Below are positions 18,710 through 21,989 of a stretch of 50,670 bases of DNA, piece after piece. The stretch is from Thermomicrobiales bacterium (GTDB lineage: Bacteria; Chloroflexota; Chloroflexia; Thermomicrobiales; CADCWN01). Both the position numbers and the translations under genes were made by a program. Position 1 is the stretch's first letter. Each line of letters starts with the position of its first letter. Below the pieces are notes generated by a model. That model did no database searches. It was not told the origin of the DNA and saw only the letters and a program-made list of their open reading frames with translations. The stretch covers positions 59,287 to 109,956 of the forward strand of contig JAUJMV010000018.1 in assembly GCA_030446685.1 (NCBI GenBank), in the 5' to 3' direction.

Positions 18710-19336
18710 TCAGGCGCTTCCTCGGCGCGCGCGCGCCGGGCTGCCGGTCGCGCTCGGGACCGCCCGCCGGGACCGCGCGCGCCGGGCCGCCGGCAACAGC
18801 AGGCCGGCCGCCAGGAGCACTACCGCCACCCCAAGCCTCCAGATCAACGCCGGCGGGTCAACGGCGCCGCCGGACAGCGGCGCCGAGATGCCCGCAGGAT
18901 CGGCTTCCGACGACTGGGCGGCGATGGCGGGCAGCACCGTCAGGGAGCCCGACCAGACGCCGACCACCAGCGGCTCCGCCTTGACCGTCAGGCGCCACTC
19001 CCCCTCGCTGGGAAAGGTGACCTCGACGGCGAAGTGGCCGGGCGGCCCGGCCTTACGCCCGTCGATCCGCAGCGATTCGCCGGTCGCGCTATTGCGCGCG
19101 CTCAGGTAGGGGCGCACCGGCTTGTCCCCGAAGACGTCGATCGGCCTGCCGTGCGTGCGAACGATGAAGGCCAGCGTCAGCGCCTCGCCGGCGCGCGGCG
19201 CGGTTGGCAGCGGCCCCATCTCCACCGTCCCGCCGTCGCCGGCCAGCGCGGCGGCGCCCCCCGACAGGCCGAGCGCCAGCGCCAGCGCGACGGCCGGGGC
19301 TACCCGGCGAACGATGACTCCAATCCCGCTCCGCAT
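18710..19336 (-). CDS. YtkA-like/FixH-like extracytoplasmic protein with C-terminal anchor (copy 2)
   Basis: ATG 19336 follows GAGGTG. Signal peptide (VAPAVALALALGLSGGAAAL), then an Ig-like domain of about 110 residues (LTLAFIVRTHGRPIDVFGDK, FAVEVTFPSEGEWRLTVKAE), a linker, and a C-terminal helix with Arg tail (LGVAVVLLAAGLLLPAARRA). The layout matches the paralog at 19724-20245: same TLAFIVRxHG, same placement of ATGE, same anchor. YtkA-like domains often occur with cytochromes and copper proteins; the true role here is unknown. 208 residues. Confidence 0.75.
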   Translation of the reverse strand: MRSGIGVIVRRVAPAVALALALGLSGGAAALAGDGGTVEMGPLPTAPRAGEALTLAFIVRTHGRPIDVFGDKPVRPYLSARNSATGESLRIDGRKAGPPGHFAVEVTFPSEGEWRLTVKAEPLVVGVWSGSLTVLPAIAAQSSEADPAGISAPLSGGAVDPPALIWRLGVAVVLLAAGLLLPAARRARSRRAVPSATGSPARARRGSA

Positions 19337-19392: not shown

Positions 19393-19727
19393 TCAGGGCT
19401 CGGCGTTGAGGAAGGCAATCAGATCGGCGATCTCGCCATCCGAGAGGCCGAGGGTCGGCATCTTCGTCCCCGGCTTGATCGCCGCCGGGTCGGTCAGCCA
19501 GCGCCGCAGGATGGCGGGGTCGTTGCGATAGCTGGTCAGCGACGGCCCGATGGGAACCCGCCCGGAGCCGGCGACCTCGGCGTGCAGGTGGCAGTCGGCG
19601 CAGCCCTTGTCGCGAAAAGGGTCGCGCCGCGCTCCGCCGACCCGGTCCGGTCGGCGCCCGACCCGCACGCCGCGAGGCCAACAGCGATCAGCAACAAGCC
19701 CGCCGCCAGGCGGGATGCCGCGCTCAC
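19393..19727 (-). CDS. Monohaem cytochrome c lipoprotein, frameshifted
   Basis: A small electron carrier tethered outside the membrane. GTG 19727 overlaps the stop of the upstream gene (GTGA). Signal and lipobox (LAAGLLLIAVGLAAC) are followed by haem motif GCADCH and a distal Met in PGTKMPTLGLSDGEIADLIA. Between ERGATLF and RDKGCADCH one C is missing (G run at 19614, plus strand); adding it joins the two frames. About 111 residues, normal for class I cytochromes of this size. It lies between two paralogous YtkA-like genes and is translationally coupled to the first. Confidence 0.82.
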
Positions 19728-20245
19728 GCCCGCGCCACCCGCCGGTCCCGGCGCGTCCAGGCCAGGCCGAGCGCGCCGGCGAAGAGGCCGACGAGCGCGA
19801 TCACCGACAGCACCGGCCAGAGCCACGCCCCGACCCGCCCGACGAGGGCCGCGTCCGCGCGCGCCGAACCGGGGGCGCCGACCTGGAGCGGGCTCATCCG
19901 CGCCGGTTCGCCGAAGGCCGCGATCTCCCAGGTCCAGGTTCCGGCCGAGGGGAGCGTCAGCGTGGCGACATAGTGCCCGACCGCCCCTTCCGCCACGGCG
20001 ATGGCGGTGACGCGTTCGCCGGTCGCCGCGTTGAGCGCGGTGATGCGCGGGGTCAGCCCGGCCATCGGCTTGTCGCCGTGCTGGCGCACCACGAAGCCGA
20101 TCGTGAACGCCTCGCCCGCCTCGATGTTCGTCGGGGTCCTGTCGAGCGTCGTCACCGACCAGCCCCCCGCCAGCGCGCCGGCGGGCTGCGCCGCCGCGCA
20201 GAGCATGACGAACGCCGCAATGGCCACGGTTCGGGAAATCCTCAT
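19724..20245 (-). CDS. YtkA-like/FixH-like extracytoplasmic protein with C-terminal anchor (copy 1)
   Basis: ATG 20245 with AGGAGGTG five bases upstream. Signal peptide (VAIAAFVMLCAAAQPAGALA), Ig-like domain (AFTIGFVVRQHGDKPMAGLT, ITALNAATGERVTAIAVAEG, VATLTLPSAGTWTWEIAAFG), then a C-terminal transmembrane helix (WLWPVLSVIALVGLFAGALG). 173 residues. First gene of the operon with the cytochrome c lipoprotein. An ECF-type promoter at 20295-20323, the same as that of the sigma gene, drives it. Function unknown; a role in envelope redox or metal stress is an inference. Confidence 0.78.
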   Translation of the reverse strand: MRISRTVAIAAFVMLCAAAQPAGALAGGWSVTTLDRTPTNIEAGEAFTIGFVVRQHGDKPMAGLTPRITALNAATGERVTAIAVAEGAVGHYVATLTLPSAGTWTWEIAAFGEPARMSPLQVGAPGSARADAALVGRVGAWLWPVLSVIALVGLFAGALGLAWTRRDRRVARA

Positions 20246-20294: not shown

Positions 20295-20323
20295 TACTAC
20301 ACCGCCCAACGCGGGACGGTTCC
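20295..20323 (-). promoter_or_regulatory. ECF sigma promoter of the YtkA-cytochrome c operon
   Basis: Minus strand: GGAACC (20323-20318), 16-bp spacer, TGTAGTA (20301-20295), about 50 bp before the ATG. Same elements and spacing as at 21961-21989 upstream of the ECF sigma gene. GGAAC -35 boxes are characteristic of ECF sigma factors. Confidence 0.75.
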
Positions 20324-20368
20324 GGGCACGGTTTCCTCGGGTTTGCGGCGGGCAGGGTGGGAAGGGGG

Positions 20369-21332
20369 TCAGCGCAGCGAGGCGGCGATCCGCAGGGCCT
20401 CGTCTTTGGCGATGTTCGCTTCGAGGCGGTAGGTGACGCCGCCCCGCTCCCAGATCAGCGTGTTGTCGACGCGCGGCTCCGCTCGCTCTGGATGGCGCCG
20501 CGCTCGTCGCGGTAGAAGAAGGAGTGCGGCTCGCCGGCGATCCAGTAGCCGCGCGCGCCGTTGACCGTCACCTCTTCGAGCGTGGTTCCCGGCCCGATCC
20601 CTTTCATGTAGAAATCCCGGTTGATGGCGCCGCGGAACTGCGTGAGGTAGAGGCCGAGGCCGGTCCCGACCGCGGGCGGCAGGCCCGGGCGCGCCCCGTA
20701 GACGAGCGCGACCTGCCCGCCGGGCGGCGAGGGGCTGTAATACACCTCGTCCGGCGTGCCGAGTTCCGGCAGGCCGGGCGTCAGCACCGGGAAGTCCACC
20801 CGCCTGCGCGCCTCCTCCAGCGTGACCAGCGCGCCGAAACCGTAGCCGCCGCCGAGCGGCCCGGTGGCGGTGGGTGTGGCGCCGGCGGCGGACGCCGTCG
20901 CGCCCGGCGTGCCGCGCGTGGCGTCGGGCGGTCGCCCCCCGGACGCGGTGCCAGTCGGCGGCGCGGCGGTAGGCGACGGGACGGTAGTCGCCGGCGCGGC
21001 GGCGGTCGCCGGAAGGGTCGGCGTGGTGTAGACGATGGCGATGCCGGGCAGGCCGAGCCGCTCCCCGATGGCGCCCCGCGCGCCGGGGGAGAGCGCCAGC
21101 GCCGCGCAGGCGATCAGGACGACCGCCAGCAGCGCCGGCGCCAGCCGCCGCGGCGCGGGGAAGAGCCCGGCCCAGAAGGGGCGGCGGGCCGGTTGCGCCT
21201 CCAGCCGGCGGCGGACCGCGCGCGCCAGGTCGGGCGTCGGCGGGTAGTCCAGCCGCCCCCGCAGGTCGCGCAGCGCCCCTCCAGTTCGGCCTCGGTCGGC
21301 TCCCGTCGCGGGCGCGGTGGCCGCTCAGCCAT
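20369..21332 (-). CDS. Membrane anti-sigma factor with DUF4367-like sensor domain, two frame breaks
   Basis: Predicted to hold the adjacent ECF sigma factor at the membrane. Start ATG 21332 (MAERPPRPRREPTEAELEG). The cytoplasmic part (GALRDLRGRLDYPPTPDLAR) and one transmembrane helix (APALLAVVLIACAALAL) are followed by a Thr/Pro/Ala linker and an extracytoplasmic domain: RRRVDFPVLTPGLPELGTPD, VYGARPGLP, GYWIAGEPHSFFYRDERG, DNTLIWERGGVTYRLEANIA, the DUF4367 pattern. Two one-base gaps break it: C run 21276-21279 (five expected) and CC at 20479-20480 (three expected). Repairing both gives one product of about 320 residues. Its start lies next to the sigma gene end. Confidence 0.78.
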
Positions 21333-21943
21333 GCGGCGCCCCCTTCCGGTCGGCGGTCTCCACCCTCGGCATCCTCAACCACTGCACCGGCGCGCCCGGC
21401 GAGACGGTCGCGCAGCCGGCCGAGCGCGCGCGCGAGGCGCGACTTGACCGTGCCGCGCGCGCAGCCGAGCGCCGCGGCCATCTCCGCCTCGGACAGCTCG
21501 AGGAAGTAGCGGTAGGCGATCACCTGGCGGTCGTCCTCGCGCAGTTCCGCCAGCGCCCCGAGCAGTTCCTCCCGCCCCGCCGCCAGCGCGCCCGCCTCCG
21601 GCGACGGCTCGACCCCGCCCGCCGCCCCTTCCGCCGCGCGCAGGGCCAGGCGGTCGCGCCGCCCGCTCGCGCGGCGCCGGTTGCGCGCCTCATTCGCGAC
21701 GATCTGGAGTAGCCAGGGGCGGAAGGGGGCGCCCGGCCGGAAGCGGGGCAGCGCGGCGTGCGCCTTCATGAAGGCGTCCTGGGCGGCGTCCTCCGCGTCG
21801 GCGGCCGTCCCGGTGATGACGTAGGCGGTGCGGAAGGCGATCTCCTGATAGTGCCGCACCAGCGTCTCATACGCGCCGACATCGCCCCTACGCGCCCGCT
21901 CGACCAGTTCGCCCTCCGCCGGTTGCGCTGGCTGCCCGTCCAC
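21333..21943 (-). CDS. ECF-family RNA polymerase sigma factor (SigE-like)
   Basis: GTG 21943 with GTGAGGATC just upstream. Sigma-2 region: ERARRGDVGAYETLVRHYQE, TGTAADAEDAAQDAFMKAHA, RFRPGAPFRPWLLQIVANEA. Sigma-4 region: LGALAELREDDRQVIAYRYF, LELSEAEMAAALGCARGTVK, SRLARALGRL. The frame as given runs on past the anti-sigma start without a stop. One base fewer in the G run near 21340 would give a TGA overlapping the anti-sigma ATG (ATGGCTGA), the common arrangement, so the end is uncertain and I close the gene at the anti-sigma start. It appears to control itself through the promoter at 21961-21989. Confidence 0.85.
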
Positions 21944-21960
21944 GCACCGATCCTCACCTG

Positions 21961-21989
21961 TACTACACCGCCGGGCGTGTGGCGGTTCC
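21961..21989 (-). promoter_or_regulatory. ECF sigma autoregulatory promoter
   Basis: Minus strand: GGAACC (21989-21984), 16-bp spacer, TGTAGTA (21967-21961), preceded by CGG as at 20295-20323. Transcription would start only about 10 nt before the GTG at 21943, giving a very short leader. Confidence 0.75.

Follow-up and report, generated by a model that had tools for sequence, protein, structure and literature searches.

A conserved promoter-like signature links an ECF sigma factor operon to genes of exported YtkA-like and cytochrome c proteins in a Thermomicrobiales bacterium

We describe a predicted regulon of an extracytoplasmic function (ECF) sigma factor in a Thermomicrobiales bacterium (GenBank assembly GCA_030446685.1). 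The analyzed window is a stretch of 50,670 nucleotides of contig JAUJMV010000018.1, and on its minus strand the following elements lie in order: the promoter-like site P1, an ECF sigma factor gene, an anti-sigma factor gene, the promoter-like site P2, a gene for a YtkA-like protein, a cytochrome c lipoprotein gene, and a second YtkA-like gene. Both P1 and P2 carry a conserved promoter-like signature, GGAACC-N16-TGTA, and this signature precedes the same ECF regulator in 49 of 55 related loci. The pattern points to an autoregulated envelope regulon; in this class its predicted products would likely deal with copper or electrons on the outer side of the membrane.

Results

Two sites with one signature

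In both P1 and P2 the GGAACC and TGTAGTA boxes are separated by a 16-bp spacer, and CGG precedes the second box. An earlier note on this DNA, made from the sequence alone, had reported the two minus-strand sites with the same boxes, spacer, and CGG, and all of these features were confirmed by exact matching. With spacers of 14 to 19 bp allowed, P1 and P2 are the sole matches in the window, compared with 0.00 expected from 100 shuffles. P1 ends 17 bases before the GTG start of the sigma factor gene; P2 is 49 bases from the ATG of the first YtkA-like gene, which is preceded by AGGAGG.

The exact pattern, searched as the note had proposed in the whole genome containing the window (G000; 7,042,692 bases, 111 contigs, 84.9% complete, 2.6% contamination), is rare: three copies were found, and the reversed pattern gave none. 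The third copy (C21:7607-7635) lies ahead of a lipoprotein reading frame. The TGTAGTA box as originally drawn proved too long, the core conserved across loci being TGTA.

Conservation before orthologous sigma factor genes

A profile derived from five anti-sigma orthologs matched 30 of the 158 genomes of the class. Conservation was assessed in 31 loci, that is, 26 loci of the class outside the window (G084, G085, and G097 were left out), four added loci labelled Acidimicrobiaceae (two), Dormiibacterota (one), and Anaerolinea (one), and the window itself; the start of the sigma factor gene is present in 30 of them. The site GGAAC[CT]-N17-GTA was found upstream of the orthologous sigma factor gene in 29 of these 30 loci, the window included, and the reversed pattern in none (0/30). 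The exception, L133, has CGAACC at the expected place. A second site follows the anti-sigma gene within about 300 bp in 16 of 29 loci, again including the window (reversed control, 0), and in L132 and L152 it lies just past this stretch. Among 45 such sites, where GGAAC and GTA are fixed by the search pattern, 42 have C as the sixth base (C or T allowed), and 37 have T at the unconstrained position preceding GTA.

A later profile search covered 400 genomes of the phylum, some of them seen before, and 62 were matched. It yielded 30 loci, three of them known already; 27 were tested, and 26 were retained after L186, the same locus as L155, had been dropped. The upstream site is present in 21 and the downstream site in 12 of the 26, and over all 27 loci the reversed control gave no match and the opposite strand one. 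The sigma factor of the window is 52-64% identical to three orthologs, and the 26 sigma proteins of the module that could be extracted form one clade (support 0.74), apart from 24 of the 29 other ECF factors of G000 that were examined. The signature upstream of orthologous sigma factor genes in both sets, together with its frequent copy after the anti-sigma gene, argues well for self-regulation of the predicted operon. GGAACC would correspond to the GGAAC-type -35 element of an autoregulatory ECF promoter.

Candidate targets in the genome

A two-mismatch search of G000 gave 37 matches, a subset of which shares GGAACC and CGGTGTA. The corresponding strict core, GGAACC-N13-CGGTGTA, occurs at 11 sites in 7.04 Mb (two matches with N12 were dropped from the count), and its reversed form at none. 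By an automatic check, eight of the 11 sites have the start of a predicted exported protein (seven lipoproteins and YtkA) no more than 260 bp downstream; of the remaining three, one belongs to the sigma factor gene, one precedes a gene of what we take to be a MoxR-type ATPase, and one has an exported protein at a distance of about 400 bp. Exported targets follow two of 20 two-mismatch sites lacking the core (25 two-mismatch loci minus five bearing the core; seven matches were left out), none of the 11 opposite strands, and 37 of 600 positions picked at random in sigma loci. The difference between the non-sigma strict sites (8/10) and the first control (2/20) is significant by Fisher's test (p = 0.0003). 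The predicted regulon, described as small in the earlier note, is thus larger, with most of its sites ahead of genes for exported proteins.

Among the 47 sigma70_r2 matches in G000, the gene of the window is the only one with a strict site just upstream, and the looser site GGAAC[CT]-N17-GTA was found on neither strand in the 29 other sigma loci examined. A second ECF/anti-sigma pair (L086, C111:232000-244000) has no site upstream; the C-terminal part of its anti-sigma factor looks DUF4367-like by eye. As a separate observation, the MoxR-type ATPase gene, so named from a reading of its frame, is the sole clearly non-exported target besides the sigma factor (L039, C70:59654-59679). Lipoproteins or exported proteins of weak mutual similarity (best between-genome pairwise E-value, 6.5e-4) were also seen to follow the site repeatedly, in L031, L032, and L033 of G000, in L123 of G035, and in L194 and L203.

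YtkA-like proteins with heme or copper partners

After the second site in loci of the class, YtkA is mostly the next gene. In a motif scan of 21 YtkA loci, every one of the 11 loci from one family, f4, has a type-1 copper loop with Cys-His-Met ligands following the YtkA domain (in L112 the loop lies in a shifted frame), and in seven others (L110, L113, L136, L140, L141, L142, and L145) YtkA is followed by a CxxCH cytochrome c; neither motif was found in L114 and L143. In L109 the cytochrome c gene is located just upstream of YtkA, outside the scanned stretch, and the window is the ninth YtkA-cytochrome c locus. The L111 domain was identified as plastocyanin/azurin (PF00127, 1.8e-13, 51.2 bits vs. 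a cut-off of 21.2); the NCBIfam plastocyanin model gave a match under its own cut-off (52.4 vs. 87.85). By these motifs, one family of relatives has a predicted blue-copper loop next to YtkA in exchange for the heme c protein. Public proteins include YtkA-cytochrome c fusions and, among the matches listed, one YtkA-cupredoxin fusion. In G006, G012, G015, and G035 a YtkA gene that is unlinked to the sigma factor gene in the data carries the site, in G012 without CGG.

As an output of the regulon, the YtkA/cytochrome c set proposed in the earlier note is not universal. Outside the class, YtkA was not found within 1.5 kb downstream, and of the 13 downstream sites (L186 included) ten lie ahead of members of a single large lipoprotein family, two ahead of a different lipoprotein, and the last at a contig end. 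In G069 (L136) the large lipoprotein, YtkA, and cytochrome c stand in one row. A beta-propeller label for the large lipoprotein family would depend on weak matches. G069 also has a strict site (L165, C409:5227-5252) before a membrane protein that presumably resembles DoxX/MauE.

The anti-sigma factor

The in-frame piece of the anti-sigma factor in the window has no significant Pfam match, DUF4367 (PF14285) included, and three of five orthologs match DUF4367 at E <= 0.1 (best 0.011), apparently below the Pfam cut-off, so the DUF4367-like character initially assigned to this protein is weak. The structure model of an ortholog contains helices at residues 23-36 and 45-54 and a likely membrane helix at 71-98, with low confidence in the N-terminal part; this arrangement may suit a class I anti-sigma factor (ASDI), in which an N-terminal helical domain precedes a membrane helix. 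In structure comparison, its outside domain can be aligned with the C-terminal domain of RseB/MucB, whose fold it may share; by sequence, no RseB or MucB chains were found with the anti-sigma profile.

Genes of the locus

Coordinates of the sites and genes are given in Table 1. Sigma regions 2 and 4 are both recognized above the Pfam cut-offs in a short protein, as expected of an ECF factor. The first YtkA-like protein, for which a structure model was obtained with a predicted local distance difference test (pLDDT) score of 87, has a 92%-identical homolog, P0002, that carries a PF13115 listing. The cytochrome c gene, read across two frames, encodes a lipobox and a CADCH heme motif, and its PF00034 match is to the C-terminal piece (19393-19668).

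Table 1. Predicted sites and genes of the sigma factor locus (window positions)
Feature	Coordinates	Strand	Evidence
P1, promoter-like site before ECF sigma factor gene	21961..21989	-	exact GGAACC-N16-TGTAGTA match
ECF sigma factor gene, GTG start	21335..21943 (exact end uncertain)	-	Sigma70_r2 (PF04542) 5.5e-15; Sigma70_r4_2 (PF08281) 7.1e-14
Membrane anti-sigma factor gene	20369..21332	-	three frames read; matched by ortholog profiles
P2, promoter-like site before YtkA-cytochrome c genes	20295..20323	-	exact GGAACC-N16-TGTAGTA match
YtkA-like exported protein	19724..20245	-	PF13115 5.7e-5; predicted signal sequence, immunoglobulin (Ig)-like domain, C-terminal membrane helix
Cytochrome c lipoprotein gene (CxxCH)	19393..19727	-	PF00034 6.6e-6, 27.8 bits vs. 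cut-off 21.3
Second YtkA-like exported protein	18710..19336	-	PF13115 weak, 0.032; tblastn with YtkA query set 2e-11

Several of these frames appear defective, on which the earlier note had not remarked. Two apparent shifts interrupt the anti-sigma frame, near 21275 (21270-21285) and near 20475 (20470-20485), one interrupts the cytochrome c frame, near 19620 (19610-19630), and the sigma factor frame has no in-frame stop at its expected end. One missing base suffices to explain each shift. The lipoprotein frames at C21 and C16 also look broken, and large neighbouring frames of the window are open (783, 558, and 1042 codons). Judging from the sequence, the shifts are probably sequencing errors. 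The orthologous sigma factor genes of G034 (L109) and G004 (L115) also look frameshifted, at other places.

Discussion

The central proposal of the earlier note was a self-regulated sigma/anti-sigma regulon that includes YtkA-like proteins and cytochrome c. Its shared signature holds, and the signature recurs in orthologous loci; the small size was not sustained, and the DUF4367 assignment is weak. From the sequence comparisons we consider it highly probable that the regulon is autoregulated. With somewhat less assurance, the sigma factor probably transcribes its own operon and an exported set, here the YtkA-like proteins and the cytochrome c, that would likely carry electrons or deliver copper. 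A copper or electron role of the exported set, taken by itself, is a tentative assignment.

A number of observations weigh against this interpretation. The strict core was picked after the near-matches in G000 had been viewed, and the count of 11 sites is therefore no independent test; two of these sites, those before the MoxR-type ATPase and the distant exported protein, fit it poorly. The strict pattern gives 59 matches over the 158 genomes of the class vs. 12 for the reversed control, and among the 25 new loci obtained in this way 12 precede a sigma factor, YtkA, lipoprotein, or other exported or membrane protein, the other 13 having no recognizable target. Similarly, three of five strict sites in order-level relatives lie ahead of a sigma factor or exported-protein gene, and nothing clear follows the other two. 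Neither the site nor YtkA nor a match to the anti-sigma factor was found in G001, the only genome of the same family that was searched. The upstream site is lacking in five of the 26 later loci (one of them, L198, has no upstream sequence), no second site was found in the examined stretch in 13 of the 29 loci of the first set, and several orthologous loci have no YtkA nearby. The first YtkA-like protein scores under the PF13115 cut-off (24.1 vs. 25.9 bits), and its fold is of the generic Ig type. Finally, the frameshifted copy in the window may be decayed.

The strongest alternative is a general envelope-stress regulon, similar to sigma-E with RseA and RseB, that has varied exported targets; YtkA and cytochrome c would then be lineage-specific members with no special redox meaning. 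The possible RseB-like fold of the outside domain and the lipoproteins that follow the site outside the class stand beside the heme and copper partners of YtkA within it, and we give this explanation slightly less than an even chance. It is rather unlikely that the sites serve several paralogous ECF factors of overlapping specificity and form no single regulon. G000 has many sigma70_r2 matches, and the ECF pair on C111 is followed by a strict site that lies ahead of an exported protein, which also counts against our interpretation; however, only the sigma factor gene of the window has a strict site upstream, and the site tracks the orthologs of this sigma factor through many genomes. Chance or a duplication artefact without promoter function is most improbable as the source of the likeness of P1 and P2: the evidence is of sequence only and the class-wide strict pattern also occurs at places with no recognizable target, but the spacers of the two sites, though equal in length, differ, the reversed controls gave none in G000 and beside the sigma factor genes, and the site is kept before the same gene in other families.

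For the autoregulated regulon, the following mechanism can be proposed. The anti-sigma factor, anchored by a single membrane helix and bearing an outside domain, would hold the sigma factor at the membrane until it is released by an outside signal, which may concern the state of the envelope, redox conditions, or copper. The freed sigma factor would amplify itself from P1 and induce the exported set from P2 and the distant sites. The YtkA domain might help to load or dock copper sites, by analogy with CtaK of Bacillus subtilis, and the neighbouring heme or copper carrier might move electrons. Taken with the heme or copper partner of YtkA, the proposed role of CtaK in CuA assembly hints at a part in loading copper or transferring electrons on the outer side of the membrane. 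A broader model, in which a self-amplifying ECF system drives YtkA together with interchangeable heme c or blue-copper carriers throughout the phylum, the anti-sigma factor reading redox or copper status via its RseB-like domain, is more speculative and in our estimate the less probable extension.

An autoregulated ECF sigma factor with a membrane anti-sigma factor is a known kind of system, and the ECF group of this sigma factor may already bear a number in the ECF group catalogue. The gene combination, the promoter signature, and the heme-for-copper partner exchange were not found in the open-licence full-text literature, in agreement with the earlier statement that no system of such composition had been described; no experimentally described ECF regulon from the phylum turned up in the same literature. 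Here a single regulator comes together with a clear promoter signature and a set of listed candidate targets, and the relatives provide a natural experiment, two different metal carriers standing under the same switch. If confirmed, the regulon would connect surface signalling to copper/heme electron transfer in a way open to experiment, and its promoter code would help to predict its members in many uncultured genomes.

The closest well-known counterparts are sigma-E of Escherichia coli with RseA and RseB and AlgU of Pseudomonas aeruginosa with MucA and MucB, where a membrane anti-sigma factor controls an autoregulated ECF factor with exported targets. The predicted system would resemble them in all three respects, and the outside domain of the anti-sigma ortholog can be aligned with the C-terminal domain of RseB/MucB. 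In contrast to them, one protein would here combine the anti-sigma and sensor-like domains, and the predicted targets comprise lipoproteins as well as YtkA accompanied by cytochrome c or cupredoxin.

Tt-RpoE1 of Thermoanaerobacter tengcongensis is an ECF factor activating its own gene in vitro, and the adjacent anti-sigma factor Tt-TolB, like the one predicted here, is expected to cross the membrane once and has a large portion on the far side (PMC3397946). There, however, the TolB-like protein is itself the anti-sigma factor, whereas here the anti-sigma factor is a separate protein and the exported targets after it have a site of their own. For CtaK (formerly YtkA) of B. subtilis, participation in the assembly of the CuA centre of cytochrome c oxidase has been proposed, and the ycnKJI operon is controlled by the copper-dependent repressor YcnK (PMC13344008, PMC12362106). 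The YtkA-like proteins of our loci share with CtaK and the YtkA domain of YcnJ a membrane-anchored exported YtkA domain, linked there to copper loading of cytochrome c oxidase; in contrast, neither ECF control nor a YtkA-cytochrome c or YtkA-cupredoxin fusion is mentioned in the available text of these two papers. The PetR/PetP switch likewise places a heme c carrier, cytochrome c6, and a blue-copper carrier, plastocyanin, as alternatives under one regulator (PMC10141476), but that regulator acts on both genes in response to copper, whereas each of the loci examined here has a single type of carrier. CorE of Myxococcus xanthus is similarly an ECF factor with copper-related targets, regulated by its metal-binding C-terminal extension (PMC10141476), in place of which the predicted system has an anti-sigma factor.
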